Assembly: GCA_016195565.1 (NCBI GenBank)
Contig: JACPZK010000021.1
Span: 1 to 64,000, forward strand
Direction: 5' to 3'
DNA: 64,000 bases
Source: Nitrospirota bacterium
Lineage (GTDB): Bacteria > Nitrospirota > Thermodesulfovibrionia > Thermodesulfovibrionales > UBA1546
The position numbers were made by a program, and so were the translations under genes. Below, in pieces: positions 19,076-31,271 of this stretch. Every line of letters begins with the position of its first letter. The stretch's first letter is position 1. Under the pieces are notes generated by a model. That model searched no databases, had not been told where the DNA came from, and saw nothing but the letters and a program-made list of their open reading frames with translations.

Positions 19076-20668
19076 ATGGGAACAGAAAAAAGAACATTAA
19101 TAGCTATAATCCTTTCAATAATCATTCTTGTAGGGTATCAGTTTTTATTCCCTACTCCGCCTGAGAAACAACCGGCAACCGAACAGGCAAAGGAAGAAAA
19201 GAAAGAAAATAAACCGCAGGAGCCTGTCAAGCCTGTTTCCGTTCCTGCTTCAAAACCGGCAGTATCCCAGGCAGAAGAAAAAGAAGTCAGGATTGAAACA
19301 GGCCTTTATTCTGCAACGCTCTCGTCAATAGGCGGGACAATAAAAAAATGGGAATTAAAAAAATATAAAGATAAAGATGGGCTGCCCGTTGTCCTTCAGC
19401 AGGGACAGAGTATTTATCAGCCTCTCAGCATAGGGTACCAGAATGATTTTAATCTTGCAAAGGTGAGTTTTAGACTCTCAGGCAAGGATCTGAAACTTAA
19501 TGAAAACACAAGTACAGGCGCCATTGTTTTTGAATATGCAACCTCTGAATCTTCCATAAGAAGGACTTACACTTTTTATAATGACAGCTACAAGGTTGAC
19601 CTTAAGGATGAAGTTGCGGGTTTGCCAGAATACTGGATAACCACAGGCACTGACTTCGGTATTTATGACAAAAAAGATACGTCAGTTCATCTCGGGCCTG
19701 TGCTCCTAAAAGACGCAGAGAGAATAGAATTTGACGCAAAAAAACTGAGCGAGACTAAAAGCTATCAGGGCAGGCTTAAATGGATTGCGCAGGAAGATAA
19801 ATATTTCTTCTCAGCTATTGTGCCGGTGACGCAGATGGATGAGGCACAGGCATGGAAGGTTCAGGATGCATCCGTTATCGCATTCAAGGGAAAATCCGGC
19901 ATTAATAATTTTATCGTTTATGCCGGGCCGAAAGAACACGACAACCTCAAAAAATTAGATGTCGGGCTTGAGCACATCATTGATTTCGGCTTTTTCTCCA
20001 TCATATCAAGGCCGCTGTTCTGGCTTATGAAATTCTTTCATAACTTCATGGGGAATTACGGATGGGCCATAGTGCTTTTGACAATAGTAACACGAATTCC
20101 ATTCATTCCGCTTCTAAATAAAAGCCAGGCATCAATGAGAAAGATGCAGGAAATCCAGCCCAAAATGGCTGAGATAAAAGAAAAATACAAGAAAGACCCG
20201 CAGAAGATACAGAAGGAAACAATGGAGCTTTACAAAAAACACAAGGTAAACCCCCTTGGGGGCTGCCTTCCTATGCTGTTGCAGATTCCTGTATTCTTTG
20301 CGTTATATAAGATATTATCAATCGCCATTGAATTAAGAGGCGCGCCGTTCATTCTCTGGATAACAGACCTCTCAGGCCCGGACACGCTTTTCGGACACAT
20401 CCCTTCGTCGTTCCCTTTGATTGGCGGTTTCGCTCTCGGCCCACTGCCGATTGCCATGGGGATTACAATGGTCATCCAGCAGAAGATGACGCCGTCGTCA
20501 GCCGACCCTGCCCAGCAGAAGATGATGATGCTCATGCCGGTTATATTCACATTCATGTTCCTTAACTTCGCGTCAGGGCTTGTGCTTTACTGGCTGATAA
20601 ACAACTTACTCTCAATTGCCCAGCAGTTTTATGTGAACAGAAAACTTGCAAAAGAAAAAGCTGAATAA
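19076..20668 (+). CDS. yidC: Membrane protein insertase YidC
   Basis: A 530-residue YidC of the Gram-negative type. It has an N-terminal transmembrane helix (residues 7-24), a K/E/P-rich linker, a large periplasmic beta-domain (about 70-300), then the conserved five-helix core starting at FHNFMGNYGWAIVLLTIVTRI and including NPLGGCLPMLLQIPVFFALYK and a C-terminal YWLINNLLSIAQQ. It inserts membrane proteins alone or with SecYEG. The usual downstream partner khpB (jag) is absent; a foreign cassette lies between yidC and mnmE. Confidence 0.96.
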   Translation: MGTEKRTLIAIILSIIILVGYQFLFPTPPEKQPATEQAKEEKKENKPQEPVKPVSVPASKPAVSQAEEKEVRIETGLYSATLSSIGGTIKKWELKKYKDKDGLPVVLQQGQSIYQPLSIGYQNDFNLAKVSFRLSGKDLKLNENTSTGAIVFEYATSESSIRRTYTFYNDSYKVDLKDEVAGLPEYWITTGTDFGIYDKKDTSVHLGPVLLKDAERIEFDAKKLSETKSYQGRLKWIAQEDKYFFSAIVPVTQMDEAQAWKVQDASVIAFKGKSGINNFIVYAGPKEHDNLKKLDVGLEHIIDFGFFSIISRPLFWLMKFFHNFMGNYGWAIVLLTIVTRIPFIPLLNKSQASMRKMQEIQPKMAEIKEKYKKDPQKIQKETMELYKKHKVNPLGGCLPMLLQIPVFFALYKILSIAIELRGAPFILWITDLSGPDTLFGHIPSSFPLIGGFALGPLPIAMGITMVIQQKMTPSSADPAQQKMMMLMPVIFTFMFLNFASGLVLYWLINNLLSIAQQFYVNRKLAKEKAE

Positions 20669-20818
20669 ATAGGAATAGCGGCCTTTTTATTTTTCGGAAT
20701 ACTCTGCGTAATTTTCCTACCTGAATCTCTTCTTGTCAAGAAATATGGGATGTGTCCCTAATTAACTATTCTAATTAACTATTTAAATAACCAAATGCCT
20801 AAAACCAATTTGCATGCC

Positions 20819-20881
20819 TCATAACAATGCGAGCTAAAAAAGCGTCCTGTGGCACTCGTTCAGTGCACGCAATTGTTAGAG
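20819..20881 (-). other. attC-like recombination site
   Basis: On the minus strand: CTCTAAC, then AATTGCG, a central part with a GCACT..AGTGC hairpin, CGCATT and GTTATGA. The outer arms pair as TAACAAT[T]GCG with CGCATTGTTA, leaving one unpaired T, the extrahelical base that is a hallmark of attC. The 63-bp size fits short attC sites. Confidence 0.72.
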
Positions 20882-21539
20882 TTGATATTCAATATACAAA
20901 CTCCAAAGATAATGCTTTTACATTGAACTTCTTTTCGATAAAAGTCTTAAGTTTTTCAAAAGACTCCTGAAGACCTTTGAGAGCATCATCACAAAGTCCA
21001 TATATTGAATCAGTCATATCCTTTAGAATGGCAACGGTAGCCCCATCCAAAGTTGCTTCGGGGCCAAGTGTCGCCATTCTTTTTTGCATAATTTCATGTC
21101 GTTCGTTTCGCTGATCAAGTGCGCCAAGTAAAGTGCGAAATTTATGCTCTGATATCATAAGTTCGTTCAAGAGCTGTGCACTATCACCGTCAAGCATAAA
21201 AACAAGTGATGCAATATCGAGACTGGGAAACTTTGCAAGAACAGAAAATGGCTTTAAGGTGAGATGCCGATTAATGTCATCCTTCATTGGATCAAGAACC
21301 TGTTTCTTCATATTTTTGACAGCATTAAGCTGCGTTGTAATTACAAACTGTGCATGTTTTGCAGCAGATATCTGTGCTTCTCGTTCTTTCTTGTCGGCAT
21401 GACGACGTTCGAAATAGAATGCTAAAAAAGCACCCAGAAAGGTACCAAATAAAGCAGCCAGAGCCGTCTCTGCATTATCACGGATTATGTTAGTCATCCA
21501 TTCGAGAAGTGGTGTCATTTTTAAATTTTAGTACTCTAA
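20825..21539 (-). mobile_element. Lone integron-type gene cassette
   Basis: Read on the minus strand, the segment begins with TTAGAG of a G|TTAGAG junction (GTTAGAG at 21540-21534), carries one gene that almost fills it, and ends with an attC-like palindrome closing on the G of GTTATGA. The attC R'' box at the 3' end, CTCTAAC, is the exact complement of GTTAGAG at the cassette's own 5' end, as expected of a circular cassette opened at G|TT. The length of 715 bp is normal for a cassette. No integrase gene is in the window. It sits where khpB is usually found. Confidence 0.75.
20889..21518 (-). CDS. Cassette-encoded membrane-anchored protein, unknown function
   Basis: A 209-residue protein that I do not recognise. 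One transmembrane helix lies at about residues 18-36 (ETALAALFGTFLGAFLAFYF), followed by a basic RRHADKKER stop-transfer and a long, mostly helical, cytoplasmic region with possible coiled-coil segments (AAKHAQFVITTQLNAVKNMK; the C-terminal LQESFEKLKTFIEKK). It is the only gene of the integron-type cassette, opposite in orientation to yidC and mnmE. The overall plan, one membrane anchor plus a helical bundle, is common for cassette genes of unknown role. No catalytic motif is visible. Confidence 0.8.
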   Translation of the reverse strand: MTPLLEWMTNIIRDNAETALAALFGTFLGAFLAFYFERRHADKKEREAQISAAKHAQFVITTQLNAVKNMKKQVLDPMKDDINRHLTLKPFSVLAKFPSLDIASLVFMLDGDSAQLLNELMISEHKFRTLLGALDQRNERHEIMQKRMATLGPEATLDGATVAILKDMTDSIYGLCDDALKGLQESFEKLKTFIEKKFNVKALSLEFVY

Positions 21540-21734
21540 CAATTAATCGACCAAGCACCCCTTTCCGCGAATGCTTGAATAAGACTATAGCATATTGCAA
21601 AACGATATGACAGAAGAAATTTTTTTGAAATCAACAGGCGCAAATTTTTATCATGTCGTATTTTGTGGTCAGCCTGAGGCGGATGGATAAATTTACATAT
21701 AATCAAACAGGAGAAAGGCGTATCCCGACTAAGT

Positions 21735-21747: not shown

Positions 21748-23217
21748 ATGATTCTTGATGACACCATAGCCGCCATTTCTACTCCTGCCGGAGAAGGCGG
21801 AATCGGCATTGTCAGATTAAGCGGAAAAGACGCAATAAAAATAGCAGGCAGGCTGTTTCATTCTTCAAAAGGCAAAACCCTCTCTGCCTCAGCCTCGCAC
21901 AGAATAATCTATGGCTTTATAAAAGACCCTGAGACAAATGAAACTGTGGATGAGGCGCTTGTCTCAATAATGCGCTCGCCGAATACCTACACGAGAGAAG
22001 ATATTGTTGAGATTAACTGCCACGGCGGAATGTCCCCTCTGAGAGATGTGCTTGAGCTTGCAGTTAAAAACGGCGCGCGGCTTGCAGAGCCCGGAGAGTT
22101 CACAAAAAGGGCCTTCTTAAACGGAAGGCTTGACCTGAGTGAGGCAGAGGCAGTGCTGGACCTCATAAGGGCAAAAACAGATGAGTCGCGCAGAATCGCT
22201 CTTGAACAACTGAGAGGAAAACTCTCTGAAAAGATTCTGAATCTCAGGGAACAGATTACAAAGATATGCGTCTTCATAGAGGCTTACATAGATTTTCCTG
22301 AAGAGGACATAGAGCTTGCATCGAAGAAAGAGATTATTGAATCAGCAGAGACAATCCTGAAAGAGCTTGAGTCGCTTCTAAAAAGTTACGATGAAGGCAG
22401 ATTTTTCAGAGAAGGGCTTGCAGCGGCAATCGTAGGAAAGCCTAATGTCGGAAAATCTTCTCTCCTTAATGCGCTTCTTCAGAAAGACAGGGCGATTGTC
22501 ACAGATACCCCTGGCACAACAAGGGACACAATTGAAGAATATCTGAATATCAACGGCCTGCCGCTTCGCATAATTGACACAGCAGGAATAAGAGAATCGC
22601 ATGACATGGCAGAGAAAGAAGGAGTTAAAAGAAGCATCAGGGCCATGGAAGATGCGGATTTAGTCATAGCTGTTATTGACGGCAGTGAGCCTCTGAAAGA
22701 TGAAGACATCGAGGTGCTCGGAAAGACAAAAGGTAAAAACACGATAATAGTTATCAATAAATCCGACTTAATAAGTTCAGAAGAGCAGAAGAGCAGAAGA
22801 GCAGAAGTTAAACGGCTTCTTGGTAAAAGGTCATTCCCGCTTGTCGGGAATCCTTCTGAAGAAAGACTCCGGACAAGCCGGAGTGACAAATCAGATGTTT
22901 ATGATATCTTTACTATTTCCGCAACGAGAGGCGAAGGGATTGAGGGGCTTAAGCAAACAATATTTAACTCCTCGGTTAAAAACTGGAAAGAGCAGAAGGA
23001 GGGTGTTATTGTTACTAATCTCAGGCATAAGATTGCAATTCAGGCTGCTTATGATTCTCTAAAGAATGGGATTAAGGCAATTGAAACTGACAAGCCGCTT
23101 GAGATAATTGCAATTGAATTCAGGGATGCGCTTGACAGACTCGGAGAGATTGTTGGAGCTGTAACAACAGATGATATTCTCAACAGGATATTCAGCGATT
23201 TCTGCATCGGAAAGTAA
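21748..23217 (+). CDS. mnmE: tRNA modification GTPase MnmE
   Basis: With MnmG it makes the cmnm5 modification at U34 of tRNAs. The N-terminal folate-binding domain starts DDTIAAISTPAGEGGIGIVR; the G domain has GKPNVGKSS at 231-238, DTPGTTRD at 253-260, DTAG at 277-280 and NKSD at 337-340; the protein ends with the catalytic CIGK. At 489 residues it is some 30-35 longer than usual. The excess is at about 342-383, directly after NKSD, where a GAGCAGAA tandem repeat and a TCATTCCCGC palindrome have been translated in frame. SATRGEG (G5) follows intact, so function is probably kept. Confidence 0.95.
   Translation: MILDDTIAAISTPAGEGGIGIVRLSGKDAIKIAGRLFHSSKGKTLSASASHRIIYGFIKDPETNETVDEALVSIMRSPNTYTREDIVEINCHGGMSPLRDVLELAVKNGARLAEPGEFTKRAFLNGRLDLSEAEAVLDLIRAKTDESRRIALEQLRGKLSEKILNLREQITKICVFIEAYIDFPEEDIELASKKEIIESAETILKELESLLKSYDEGRFFREGLAAAIVGKPNVGKSSLLNALLQKDRAIVTDTPGTTRDTIEEYLNINGLPLRIIDTAGIRESHDMAEKEGVKRSIRAMEDADLVIAVIDGSEPLKDEDIEVLGKTKGKNTIIVINKSDLISSEEQKSRRAEVKRLLGKRSFPLVGNPSEERLRTSRSDKSDVYDIFTISATRGEGIEGLKQTIFNSSVKNWKEQKEGVIVTNLRHKIAIQAAYDSLKNGIKAIETDKPLEIIAIEFRDALDRLGEIVGAVTTDDILNRIFSDFCIGK
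22831..22888 (+). repeat. TCATTCCCGC palindromic element inside mnmE
   Basis: TCATTCCCGC, TTGT, CGGGAATCC, centre, GACTCCGG, ACAAG, CCGGAGTGACA: the same two-hairpin plan as the intergenic copies at 2058 and 10046. It is translated within the G domain, coding SFPLVGNPS..LRTSRSDK. Immediately before it, 22780-22810 has AGAAGAGCAG tandem repeats. Confidence 0.85.
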
Positions 23218-25814: not shown

Positions 25815-26471
25815 TTAACCTTTATAAATCTTATGAGTAATTATATAGGATTCAACTTCTTCTGGCAATAGGTATTTTATGCTTTTCCCGCGCTTTATCA
25901 GCTTTCTGATGCCGGTTGCCGATATCTCAACAGGCGTAATATGCAGCATTGTTATGTCCCTGCCGCTTATTAGTTTTGTTTTATATGACTGAAGTTTTGC
26001 ATCATCAAGCTTTTTAAGGATGCTTCTATTTATCTTCAGATACGGTGAAGAGGCAAGGCCTGTGAATTTATAAGACGGCCTTGAGATGACTATAAAATCC
26101 GCAAGGCTGACAAGCCTCTCAGGCTGCCACCAGTTAGGGATGTCAATAAAAGCATCAATGCCGGCTATAAAGTAAAGCCTTGCGCCGGGATAAATGCGGC
26201 GCAGCTTTTCAATGGTATCCACGGAATAAGATTTATCCTTTTTTTTATATTCGATATCAGAAACAGCAAAGGAGTGGTTTTTAGATATGGCAAGCTTTAC
26301 CATCTTATATCTGTGTTTTGCGTCTGCAAGCTCTTTATCCTTGAGCGGAGGGTTGCCTGACGGCACAAAGATAATCTTGTCAAGCCCGAGTTTTTCCTTC
26401 ACCTCTTCTGCGGCTGTGAGATGTCCGTAGTGAATCGGATTAAACGTCCCGCCGAATATGCCGAGTTTCAT
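25815..26471 (-). CDS. nadD: Nicotinate-nucleotide adenylyltransferase
   Basis: Adenylates nicotinate mononucleotide in NAD synthesis. The nucleotidyltransferase motif GGTFNPIHYGHL (HxGH) is at the N-terminus and ISATGIRKLIKRG (ISxTxxR) near the C-terminus; 218 residues is normal. The start codon overlaps the stop of an antitoxin remnant (TAATG). Its first 74 codons recur as a truncated copy at 28074-28298 in the same orientation, with six substitutions in 74 residues. Confidence 0.94.
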   Translation of the reverse strand: MKLGIFGGTFNPIHYGHLTAAEEVKEKLGLDKIIFVPSGNPPLKDKELADAKHRYKMVKLAISKNHSFAVSDIEYKKKDKSYSVDTIEKLRRIYPGARLYFIAGIDAFIDIPNWWQPERLVSLADFIVISRPSYKFTGLASSPYLKINRSILKKLDDAKLQSYKTKLISGRDITMLHITPVEISATGIRKLIKRGKSIKYLLPEEVESYIITHKIYKG

Positions 26472-26821: not shown

Positions 26822-27994
26822 ATGGTAAAAGAGCGATACTTAACGCCTTACATCGTTAATGACCTCAAGGAAAAGATGGTCTTTGTCGGAGGTCCCCGGC
26901 AGGTGGGTAAAACAACCCTTTGCCGTGAACTTGTTGCGTCTTATTTTAAAAAACATTCATATTTCAACTGGGATAATAGAAATGACCGGAAGGCCATTCT
27001 AAGCTCAAGCTGGCCGGCAGACAGCAAATTGCTGATTTTCGACGAATTGCACAAATACAAAAAGTGGAAAGGTTTCATCAAGGGAGAGTACGACAAGCTC
27101 AAGGATGCTTTTCACTTCATTGTAACAGGCAGCGCAAGACTGGATTTGTATCGCCGCGGAGGCGACTCGCTGCAGGGAAGATACCATTATTACCGGCTTC
27201 ACCCCTTCACTGTCGCTGAAATAGCAAAGACATTTCAGCCTGCAGTTCCTTTCAATAAACTTATCATTCCTGATATGACATCTGAAGATGTTGTGGAATC
27301 ACTCTATGCATTCGGAGGCTTTCCCGAACCCTTTCTAAGACAGACGGCAAGGCATCTGAGAAGATGGCACAATGAAAAAATTGAGCGGATGTTAAGGGAA
27401 GACATTCAGGATATGCAACTCATAAGAGATATGGGCAGCATGAGGCTTTTAAGCGATATATTGCCTTCGAAAGTCGGCTCTCTGCTTTCAATAAATTCTA
27501 TCAGGGAAGACCTTGAAGTAAGCTTTAGGGCAGTGGCTCACTGGATAGATGTGCTTGAGTCATTTTACTATCTTTTCAGACTATATCCGTTTTCCGGCAA
27601 AAAGATACGCTCTTTGAAAAAAGAGCCTAAGCTTTATTTGTGGGATTGGGCAGAGATCGAGAACGAATCCGCAAGGTTTGAAAATCTGATAGCCTCGCAT
27701 CTCCTTAAGTTCGTGCATTTCCTTATTGATTTTGAAGGCCACAAGGCTGAGCTTTATTTTCTTCGGGATGTGGATAAGCGTGAGGTTGATTTTCTTGTCA
27801 CTGTAAAAGGAAAACCATGGTTTGCGGTAGAGGCGAAACTCAACAATGAACGGCTCTCGCCTTACCTCCTGTATTTTAAAGACCGTCTTAATATTCCTTT
27901 CTGCTATCAGGTGGTTAAAACAGCAGGTATTGACAGGTTTGAAAAAGGAGTAAGGATTATCTCAGCCGGGAAGTTTTTGGGAGGAGTAGCATAA
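26822..27994 (+). CDS. AAA_14/DUF4143 family ATPase
   Basis: A 390-residue protein of a widespread accessory ATPase family of unknown role. Walker A is GGPRQVGKTTL at about 18-28, Walker B LLIFDELHK near 68-76, sensor VTGSARLDLYRRGGDSLQGR near 101-120. The C-terminal DUF4143 part holds REVDFLVTVKGKPWFAVEAK, a D..E-x-K pattern like a PD-(D/E)XK nuclease fold. It is alone on the plus strand within a segment bracketed by direct repeats of the nadD 5' end, which suggests it arrived with that rearrangement. Confidence 0.85.
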   Translation: MVKERYLTPYIVNDLKEKMVFVGGPRQVGKTTLCRELVASYFKKHSYFNWDNRNDRKAILSSSWPADSKLLIFDELHKYKKWKGFIKGEYDKLKDAFHFIVTGSARLDLYRRGGDSLQGRYHYYRLHPFTVAEIAKTFQPAVPFNKLIIPDMTSEDVVESLYAFGGFPEPFLRQTARHLRRWHNEKIERMLREDIQDMQLIRDMGSMRLLSDILPSKVGSLLSINSIREDLEVSFRAVAHWIDVLESFYYLFRLYPFSGKKIRSLKKEPKLYLWDWAEIENESARFENLIASHLLKFVHFLIDFEGHKAELYFLRDVDKREVDFLVTVKGKPWFAVEAKLNNERLSPYLLYFKDRLNIPFCYQVVKTAGIDRFEKGVRIISAGKFLGGVA

Positions 27995-28073: not shown

Positions 28074-28298
28074 TTATTCAATATCAGAAACAGCAAGGGA
28101 GTGATTTTTAGATATGCCAAGCTTTACCATCTTATATCTGTGTTTTGCGTCTGCAAGCTCTCTGCCCTTAAGCGGCGGGTTTCCTGACGGCACAAAGATA
28201 ATCCTGTCAAGACCGAGTTTTTCCTTAACCTCTTCTGTGGCTGTGAGATGACCATAGTGGATTGGGTTAAAGGTCCCGCCGAATATGCCAAGTTTCAT
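28074..28298 (-). pseudogene. Truncated second copy of nadD (N-terminal 74 codons)
   Basis: This frame begins MKLGIFGGTFNPIHYGHLTA and follows the intact nadD for 74 codons, then stops at the codon after VSDIE. It keeps the HxGH motif but lacks the rest of the fold. Its ATG overlaps the stop of the PIN toxin gene (ATGA). It is a direct repeat of 26249-26471, and the two copies enclose 1.6 kb. Just beyond its end, 28040-28072 resembles 28995-29027. Confidence 0.9.
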
Positions 28299-29248: not shown

Positions 29249-29827
29249 CTAATTCATTAAATCCCATAAAATAAAATAGCAATATTTCACAACTTCATGA
29301 TTTACTTCGGATGGCTCAAGATGTCCGTGGAAAAGGTAGCAACGTATTTGATATAAAATTTCTATGAGGCAAGCGCAAAATTTCTGTTTATCGCTAATAA
29401 TGAAAATCTCATTCAGTTTAATTTTGTCTGGCTGTCGTCTTAATTTAACTAAGTTAGTATAGCCGGCAGGGGTTTTGCGTTGTGAATAATCAAATAATGC
29501 CGTTTCATAAGAAACATTATAATTATGATGGCCTTTCGGATATTTAATAGATGCTCTGCTTAAAGAATAATGTAAAGACTCTAAATTTGATTTAAATTTT
29601 AGATTTTCCTTTATAGGCCCGTCTGCAATTAGATTACAAAATCTTGAGAAAACTTGATTTCTTCCTGTGAAATCAGTTTTTAATTTATCTATAAAAGCTC
29701 TGTCCCGTTTATCAACTTCGGAATAGTGAGAACGATACCATGAATTAAATCCCAACCAGAGCGTCATAAACTGAGAGAAATAATCCATGCTTGCCTTCTC
29801 TAACCACTCTTTTTTAAAATCCGGCAT
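29249..29827 (-). CDS. HEPN-like protein of the R-M locus
   Basis: A 192-residue, helical protein. Near the C-terminus IRCYLFHGHLEP contains R162-x4-H167, the RNase motif of HEPN domains, in a helix followed by VVKYCYFILWDLM. The N-terminal part has LWLGFNSWYRSHY. HEPN proteins are often RNA-cleaving effectors in defence and toxin-antitoxin loci. It overlaps the hsdS stop by 14 bases, so it belongs to the restriction-modification operon. Role as effector is inference. Confidence 0.6.
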   Translation of the reverse strand: MPDFKKEWLEKASMDYFSQFMTLWLGFNSWYRSHYSEVDKRDRAFIDKLKTDFTGRNQVFSRFCNLIADGPIKENLKFKSNLESLHYSLSRASIKYPKGHHNYNVSYETALFDYSQRKTPAGYTNLVKLRRQPDKIKLNEIFIISDKQKFCACLIEILYQIRCYLFHGHLEPSEVNHEVVKYCYFILWDLMN

Positions 29828-31271
29828 CTTTCAATCCTGATTTTATAATCTCATCTTTTATCCACTTTTCCGCGTCTTTCTCGCTCTTCTCAATCGCCAT
29901 TTCAACGCCTCGTTTGGCGATATAGAGAAGACGCTTTGAATGTTCACGATCGGAAAATGATTCATCTATTTTTGTGGATATTTCTTTTTGCACAGAAACT
30001 GGCAGAATAGGAATCAACGTGTTTTTTACCTGATCTACAAGCCAATGATTAATTATTGACCCACCGGAGTCCCGTTCAATCTGTTTCTGGACAACAATAG
30101 AGTTTAATGCAAGTGTAAGATATTCAGGATAAATGCTATTGATGTCTTTTACTGTTATCCGGAGTATTCCACCAGAAGGAATCATCTTGCAGGGTGTTTC
30201 TTTTAGATAAAATGCGATTCCCGGTGTGGCATCCTTCGATAGCAAAATCTCACCTTTCTTCGGCTGATGCATTTTAAGAGTGTCGTACAACGACACAGAC
30301 AAGAATTGCTGGTTATCGTTATTGATCCCGAATTTCGAGAGATTGCTGACTCTGAGGAATGGAATGCCGTTATCCTGATAAGCGTCGCTACCGGGTTCAA
30401 TACATTTCTTTATTGAAACGATATCGCCTAAACAAGCGTGATTCTTTGAAGACCTAATGGCCTTGACTATCTCCTCATACATCGGTTGAAAATATTCGGC
30501 GTCAATGCGGTTGCTGGATTGCGTGTCGAAAAAATTCTTAATGAAGTAAAGTTGATGTTTTGGTTTCCAGTTTGGAAGACCTAATTCATTGAGCAGCGCA
30601 TCTTCTGCTTTAGCGTATTGTTCGGCGGATTTTATATAAAGACTCTGACTCTGAATAAATATCTGACGGATTATTTTTTCGAAAAATCCGTCCATAGGTT
30701 TATATATTAATATCCTGCCGACTCTCTCAAGTGTCAATTGATATTGTATAGTTAATTCACGCTCTCTGACCAGTTGTTCAAAACCATATTTTGATCTCAA
30801 GTAAACAGTTAGATAAAAAGGATCTATGCCTTCTATTTTAAAAACACCCAGAACCGTTCTCGACAGAGCCACTTCATCAAGGCCATAAACTACAGACGCA
30901 TAGCAAGGAGACCCAACTTTAGTAATCACGATATCCCCATTTTTCAATATCTTGATAGTTTTATTTTCTTTAATAAAAGAACGAGGCAGCCTTTCAAATG
31001 TATCGTTTTGCAAAGAAGTAATGGCGGGAAATTCAATGCAATCCACACACCTGATAAAGGGCATTTCTCCAGTAGCATAATATTCTGTGGCGGATGGATA
31101 GAAAGCACTTGATGCGAGCTTGCAGTAATCAGATAAGGGCTTAGCATTAACTTTTTTGAGTTTGCCTTCATTCTCTAAATAAGAAGGCTCGAAATATTCA
31201 GCATCAATTCTGTCGTCCAAATCTACATTTGAGCTACTTACAATAGATGCTTTCATTTGCCATTTTTCCAA
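29814..31271 (-). CDS. hsdS: Restriction-modification specificity subunit (HsdS-like)
   Basis: A 485-residue DNA-recognition subunit with two target-recognition halves. Each half starts with a similar block (NVDLDDRIDAEYFEPSYLE and SSNRIDAEYFQPMYEEIV) and ends in a conserved helical spacer. Half one has VDCIEFP..GDIVITKVGS, half two NGIPFLRVSNLS..KGEILLSKDATPGIAFYL. Two halves imply a bipartite asymmetric target. The start overlaps the methyltransferase gene by 19 bases. It is distinct from the second hsdS at 54425. Confidence 0.85.
   Translation of the reverse strand: MEKWQMKASIVSSSNVDLDDRIDAEYFEPSYLENEGKLKKVNAKPLSDYCKLASSAFYPSATEYYATGEMPFIRCVDCIEFPAITSLQNDTFERLPRSFIKENKTIKILKNGDIVITKVGSPCYASVVYGLDEVALSRTVLGVFKIEGIDPFYLTVYLRSKYGFEQLVRERELTIQYQLTLERVGRILIYKPMDGFFEKIIRQIFIQSQSLYIKSAEQYAKAEDALLNELGLPNWKPKHQLYFIKNFFDTQSSNRIDAEYFQPMYEEIVKAIRSSKNHACLGDIVSIKKCIEPGSDAYQDNGIPFLRVSNLSKFGINNDNQQFLSVSLYDTLKMHQPKKGEILLSKDATPGIAFYLKETPCKMIPSGGILRITVKDINSIYPEYLTLALNSIVVQKQIERDSGGSIINHWLVDQVKNTLIPILPVSVQKEISTKIDESFSDREHSKRLLYIAKRGVEMAIEKSEKDAEKWIKDEIIKSGLKDAGF

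Follow-up and report, generated by a model that had tools for sequence, protein, structure and literature searches.

We propose that the segment between yidC and mnmE analysed here is what remains of an old chromosomal integron, which lost its integrase gene (intI) in this lineage and kept a cassette promoter (Pc), its attI site and a single gene cassette; judging from sequence comparison, the probability of this reading is roughly 0.87. The locus lies within a 64-kb window (the whole stretch of DNA that was analysed, 64,000 nucleotides), which belongs to contig C21 in a genome of 2.3 Mb and 33 contigs (G000). The host is a groundwater-type Nitrospirota bacterium; among named genomes, those closest to it are Nitrospirota MAGs from the order Thermodesulfovibrionales. 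We read the locus as an old integron deprived of its intI because copies of its attI occur in relatives, an intact intI occupies the same gap in one of them (G004), and a remnant of the leader between intI and attI persists in the window. The following features were recognised:

19076-20668, plus strand: yidC, the left flank (ORF list; orthologues in the genus are 88-93% identical, and it adjoins mnmE in outgroups)
20756-20882, minus strand: attC of the long, ~130-bp VCR-like type (R'' at 20881-20875, spacer, L'', conserved stem arm, central part)
20889-21518, minus strand: cassette gene of 209 aa (ORF list; N-terminal hydrophobic stretch and a helical part)
21534-21540, minus strand: predicted crossover site G|TTAGAG, the boundary of attI and cassette (identity among attI copies collapses from about 0.9 to background level right after G|TT)
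21539-21603, minus strand: predicted attI of type B, into which the -10 part of the cassette promoter falls (the copies at G005:C232, G005:C39 and G041:C149 are 91-94% identical)
21584-21613, minus strand: Pc candidate, CTGTCA-18-TATAGT, the second hexamer being preceded by TG (9 of 12 matches in a consensus scan)
21600-21667, minus strand: diverged remnant of an intI-attI leader, intI itself being gone (aligns to the leaders at G005:C39 and G041:C149)
21748-23217, plus strand: mnmE, the right flank (ORF list; its start is overlapped by the intact intI in G004)

The 82 bp preceding the gene, used as a BLAST query, recovered the three 65-bp copies of attI type B, one of them in a genome from a different family of the same order (G041). 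The copy at G005:C232 lies upstream of mnmE, as in the window, and there another gene comes directly after G|TT; the copies at G005:C39 and G041:C149 adjoin intI genes truncated to 30 and about 119 codons, respectively. A second type of the site, attI-A, was found in G046, where an intact intI and a cassette flank it, and also just upstream of mnmE in G001, G002 and G007. Mean pairwise identity before the crossover was mostly 0.7-0.95 (over the last 50 bases for type A, n=25, or 60 bases for type B, n=4); in these 25 A and 4 B copies it stayed high at TT and was 0.2-0.5 a few bases past the crossover. This sharp drop at G|TT appears to be the signature of site-specific insertion, and the segment with the 209-aa gene is joined to attI at precisely this point. 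On comparison of the draft genomes, the 65 bp at 21539-21603 (minus strand) are best regarded as an integron promoter-attI element, the attI function of which we infer. It resembles integron attI sites in its G|TT crossover, its upstream promoter and the adjacency of intI in G046, G005 and G041; unlike the usual integron attI, it also occurs as dispersed copies without intI. The Pc candidate is weak by itself, since the region contains 5 Pc-like sites and shuffling alone predicts 3.1. A AAAATACGA-like motif was noted near the intI start (window 21637-21667, minus strand) and again inside attI-A (L077 1110-1330); it is possibly a repressor operator for intI and Pc.

The presence of a genuine promoter-attI directly before the gene speaks against both origins considered in the sequence-only reading, namely a secondary-site insertion or a single-cassette CALIN, the latter of which takes no account of attI. 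An off-target event, in which an IntI encoded elsewhere placed one cassette in a chance secondary site, would agree with the IntI fragments found elsewhere in the genome and with a locus free of intI. However, the sequence before the junction is the conserved element common to intI-linked loci, and attI with cassettes occupies the yidC-mnmE gap in five species of the genus (G000, G001, G002, G005 and G007), the cassettes differing among them. The attI copies largely refute this explanation, which we consider very improbable.

As had been noticed from the sequence alone, no integrase is nearby: contig C21 contains no integrase gene, and attI has no intI adjacent to it, as it would have in a complete integron. 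No full intI was found in the genome assembly, which holds at least two IntI C-terminal fragments, situated at contig ends (C5 and C26) and, judged by C-terminal sequence, belonging to the same clade as the IntI of G004 and G046. The intact intI of G004 (444 codons, over the TIGR02249 cut-off) lies directly upstream of mnmE, and its stop overlaps the mnmE start (ATGTTTGA). In the window, the leader remnant matched each of the two intI-linked leaders at a level reached by 1 of 1000 shuffles, which we count as a weak match.

These observations bear on a further explanation, that a Pc-attI platform was copied into this gap without intI and its cassettes were served in trans from the start. Such a history would suit the approximately 28 dispersed promoter-attI copies in relatives, nearly all of which are without intI and some without the intI-proximal leader. 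It is nevertheless unlikely, given the intact intI between yidC and mnmE in G004 and the leader remnant in the window.

Overlaps of the intI stop with the start of the next gene were seen with prmC in G000:C5 (L062 1-170) and G046:C64 (L049 9381-10679), with mnmE in G004:C220 (L044 8488-9819), and with an alcohol dehydrogenase-like gene in G041:C25 (L050 1-942), and they suggest translational coupling of the integrase to its neighbour. Just past the intI stop in G025:C41 (L046 about 1575-1660) and G010:C63 (L065 end), a C-terminal remnant of a different IntI type (..KNILG..SPLDK) was observed, as if one integron had replaced another at the same locus.

The other end of the cassette was examined with two covariance models (CMs), both built with the window excluded; the E-values of such home-built models are rough. 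The short-attC CM (14 canonical short attC sites of the 59-be type from relatives) has an L helix that is 96% paired with compensatory changes, although the helix was picked by eye and the figure is partly circular. This model recovers sites outside its training set, including those at G000:C31, C4, C24 and C26, and gave no match at the window site up to E = 10. The long-attC CM (12 sites) produced a sole match in the 64 kb, at 20756-20882 on the minus strand (45.9 bits, E 3.1e-11); intact members of the long family reach 137 bits. In their layout, R'' and L'' (the latter with an extrahelical base) are separated by about 5 nt; a CGAGTGCCAC/GTGGCACTCG stem and a long centre follow, and then L' and R', again about 5 nt apart. 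The site in the window is conserved to about 20782, its 5' two thirds match the model, and most pairs of the 3' arm, those of L' and R' included, are broken.

The attC covariance search, which had been recommended as a check, thus yielded a match, but the site had been mis-drawn at 20819-20881: the GTTATGA at 20819 is internal to the long attC, and in an intact family member this stretch likewise lies in the interior. The fold described for the site as first drawn does exist with its extrahelical T, but its stability is modest (-11.6 kcal/mol, z -2.1; 5 of 200 shuffles did as well). Rfam contained no matching attC family. Home-made attC finders, based on R-box complementarity and folding, returned equal match counts on shuffled and real sequence and were replaced by the CMs.

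We consider the window site to be a truncated long attC, and the segment would accordingly be a fossil cassette that no longer functions. It is probably immobile, because the 3' arm (L'-R') of its attC is degraded; from what is known of attC biology, its excision is unlikely. The 15-mer TGTGGCACTCGTTCA of this attC occurs in 9 of the 61 genomes. In a contig of a Nitrospirota MAG (G010:C78, L188) it is repeated five times within 4.8 kb, and all ORFs found there are on the minus strand, between the repeats; the contig carries a tandem array of cassettes whose attC repeats are VCR-like and ~130 bp long. In Vibrio, VCR-type attC sites are about 130 bp long, repeated within the lineage, and form tandem arrays behind single genes. 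The repeats described here share the length of ~130 bp and the tandem arrangement behind single genes (a likeness taken from general knowledge and not from a comparison of sequences), but constitute a sequence family of their own with the CGAGTGCCAC/GTGGCACTCG stem, and the copy in the window is devoid of the 3' arm. At the yidC end of the locus, the last attC-like R' box overlaps the yidC stop in G007 (ATTACGC) and G002 (GTTACGC), as does a degraded version of it in G001.

The exact complementarity of the segment ends was confirmed: G|TTAGAG (minus strand, G at 21540, TTAGAG at 21539-21534) faces CTCTAAC (minus strand, 20881-20875), and these lie within perfect 12-bp inverted repeats (AATTGTTAGAGT at 20871-20882 and ACTCTAACAATT at 21533-21544). 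A perfect inverted repeat might also delimit an invertible switch, flipped by IntI. Yet the R'' box is always complementary to the 5' end of its own cassette, so that such a repeat is to be expected; the segment was not seen in the opposite orientation, and the genes of the G010:C78 array lie on the strand predicted by the cassette reading. An inversion switch, considered once the motif had been seen in the opposite reading, was dropped once this tandem array had fixed the orientation of attC, and we give it hardly any weight.

As the sequence-only reading had stated, one gene nearly fills the segment: the single 209-aa ORF (minus strand) leaves few non-coding bases, as in a typical cassette. 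Its product, a putative membrane protein, fitted no Pfam, NCBIfam or PADLOC family, and a single-sequence AlphaFold model was poor (pLDDT 49). Homologues, 20-31% identical, are scattered over a few unrelated families of the phylum, with matches in 7 of 396 phylum genomes, its own included; five of the six members of the protein family match phrog_21267, a PHROG profile of unknown function, and tblastn of plasmids and phage genomes revealed no homologue. The only relative of the gene within the genus lies in G006, directly after attI-A. The patchy spread fits a mobile accessory gene, and a role in phage defence would be a guess only.

Were the gene an ordinary resident of the locus, with the inverted repeat and the fold due to chance, one might expect the missing match to the short attC model and the fold z of only -2.1. 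Against this stand the absence of the gene from the yidC-mnmE locus in the other genus genomes searched, the position of its genus relative after attI-A in G006, the exact junction shared with G005 and the long attC match, and we regard a resident gene as extremely improbable. The designation of a lone integron cassette between yidC and mnmE was right in kind, though wrong in detail; an attC match was obtained, and the relatives carry different genes at the locus instead of the same one.

The cassette was also thought to interrupt a cluster in which khpB normally lies between yidC and mnmE, which does not hold for this lineage. In more distant members of the order the gap is mostly 19-190 bp long with no gene between, and khpB was thus not displaced by the cassette. 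Traces of the element extend beyond the genus: in G013 (another genus) an attI-A scrap is present in a 126-bp yidC-mnmE gap, and in G012 the gap is 1.8 kb long, with genes on the minus strand and a weak match to attI-A. The gap of G003 is short and has no attI, which could reflect either a deletion or an original empty site. The compared genomes are drafts, mostly MAGs, in which intI copies, as repeats do, lie at contig ends.

According to the old-integron reading, a chromosomal integron (intI, Pc, attI and array) would have inserted between yidC and mnmE before the diversification of the genus, intI being directed into mnmE and the cassette array back toward yidC. IntI would have put cassettes in at the G|TT of attI. 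In the lineage of the window, intI would later have been deleted, leaving the leader remnant, Pc-attI and one cassette for the 209-aa putative membrane protein, after which the far end of the long attC may have decayed. Either Pc or a promoter of its own most likely drives the gene, which would no longer be efficiently excised. At the level of sequence, this scenario is supported by attI identity, the exact junction, the long attC with its broken 3' arm, the varied cassettes at the locus and the intact intI in G004; the order of losses, immobility and expression are deductions. Several facts count against it: attI types A and B occupy one locus in different species, a pattern for which simple vertical descent does not account; the assembly has no full intI; the leader match is weak; the gap of G003 is free of attI; and the genomes are drafts.

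The closest published case is the sedentary chromosomal integron of Xanthomonas at ilvD, an ancestral locus in which intI is often inactivated or deleted and the cassettes vary from species to species; further clusters of cassettes lacking intI recur there at other conserved loci and are described by means of attC sites (PMC12444791). The locus studied here is similar in its old insertion at a conserved site, intI decay and species-varying cassettes. In contrast to the one intI locus of Xanthomonas, the genomes here retain attI with a promoter at several loci, and most often no intI is left beside it. CALIN calls require at least two attC sites (PMC12444791; for usage see also PMC8618304). The segment resembles a CALIN in having a cassette without neighbouring intI, but has an attI and one broken attC in the window instead of two. 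In the literature, clusters of cassettes without integrase are traced to off-target insertion and to intI loss, among other routes (PMC8618304), and the yidC-mnmE locus supports intI loss.

The usual picture of an integron is that of a single intI-attI platform in each genome. With an attI-A sequence model (strong copies, E < 1e-10), we found two strong copies in G000 (C31 and C6), four in G001, three each in G007 and G005, and one or two in most others; G046, of another family, also has three, and G004, G008 and G012 have none at this threshold. Promoter-attI thus usually occurs in 1-4 strong copies per genome in the family of the window, at conserved housekeeping loci and almost always without intI. 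Among the 28 platforms with enough intI-side sequence, intI was intact in one and represented by truncated starts in three, and some platforms have no intI-proximal leader altogether. Orthologous platforms carry different cassettes at tsaC/hisD (G000:C31 versus G007:C19) and pilD/recG (G000:C6 versus G001:C9); at prfA/prmC, G002 retains attI without intI, and in G000:C5 and G046:C64 intI is joined to prmC by TAATGA. Gene names at these platforms come from reading translations, not from HMM searches.

A tentative interpretation, which we hold to be possible though rather less probable than its opposite, is a distributed integron in this family of Thermodesulfovibrionales. Several promoter-attI docking sites per chromosome, each placed between two housekeeping genes (yidC/mnmE, tsaC/hisD, pilD/recG, prfA/prmC, yajQ/pheS and others) would exchange cassettes through one or two IntI in putative trans action, the surviving intI being translationally coupled to a housekeeping gene (mnmE, prmC). 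Full-text searches of open-licence papers on integrons with Nitrospirota and with Thermodesulfovibrio revealed no paper on dispersed attI platforms.

Dispersed docking sites, mostly without integrase, with different cassettes at orthologous sites of sister species, allow all stages of decay to be compared side by side, from an intact through a truncated intI and a leader remnant to a bare attI and finally a scrap. How cassette loci without integrase arise, a persistent question in the study of CALINs, thereby becomes directly testable. The lone cassette was recognisable via attI despite its broken attC, and attC-only searches can miss such cases. The case may illustrate how a gene-capture system spreads through a chromosome and then freezes.

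Some other genes attracted attention. Judged by eye, a cassette gene downstream of attI-A and beside recG in G000:C6 (L147 5394-6161) resembles one for a TIR-domain protein, and the tsaC-hisD cassette region of G000:C31 (L146 5609-6171, attI orientation) contains a small ORF pair like an antitoxin and a MazF-type toxin. In the window, an ORF at 29814-31271 (minus strand) looks, again by eye, like one for a type I restriction specificity subunit. Two copies of the first 74 nadD codons (25815-26471 and 28074-28298, minus strand) flank an AAA-ATPase-like ORF (26822-27994, plus strand), an arrangement which is a partial duplication around an insertion.
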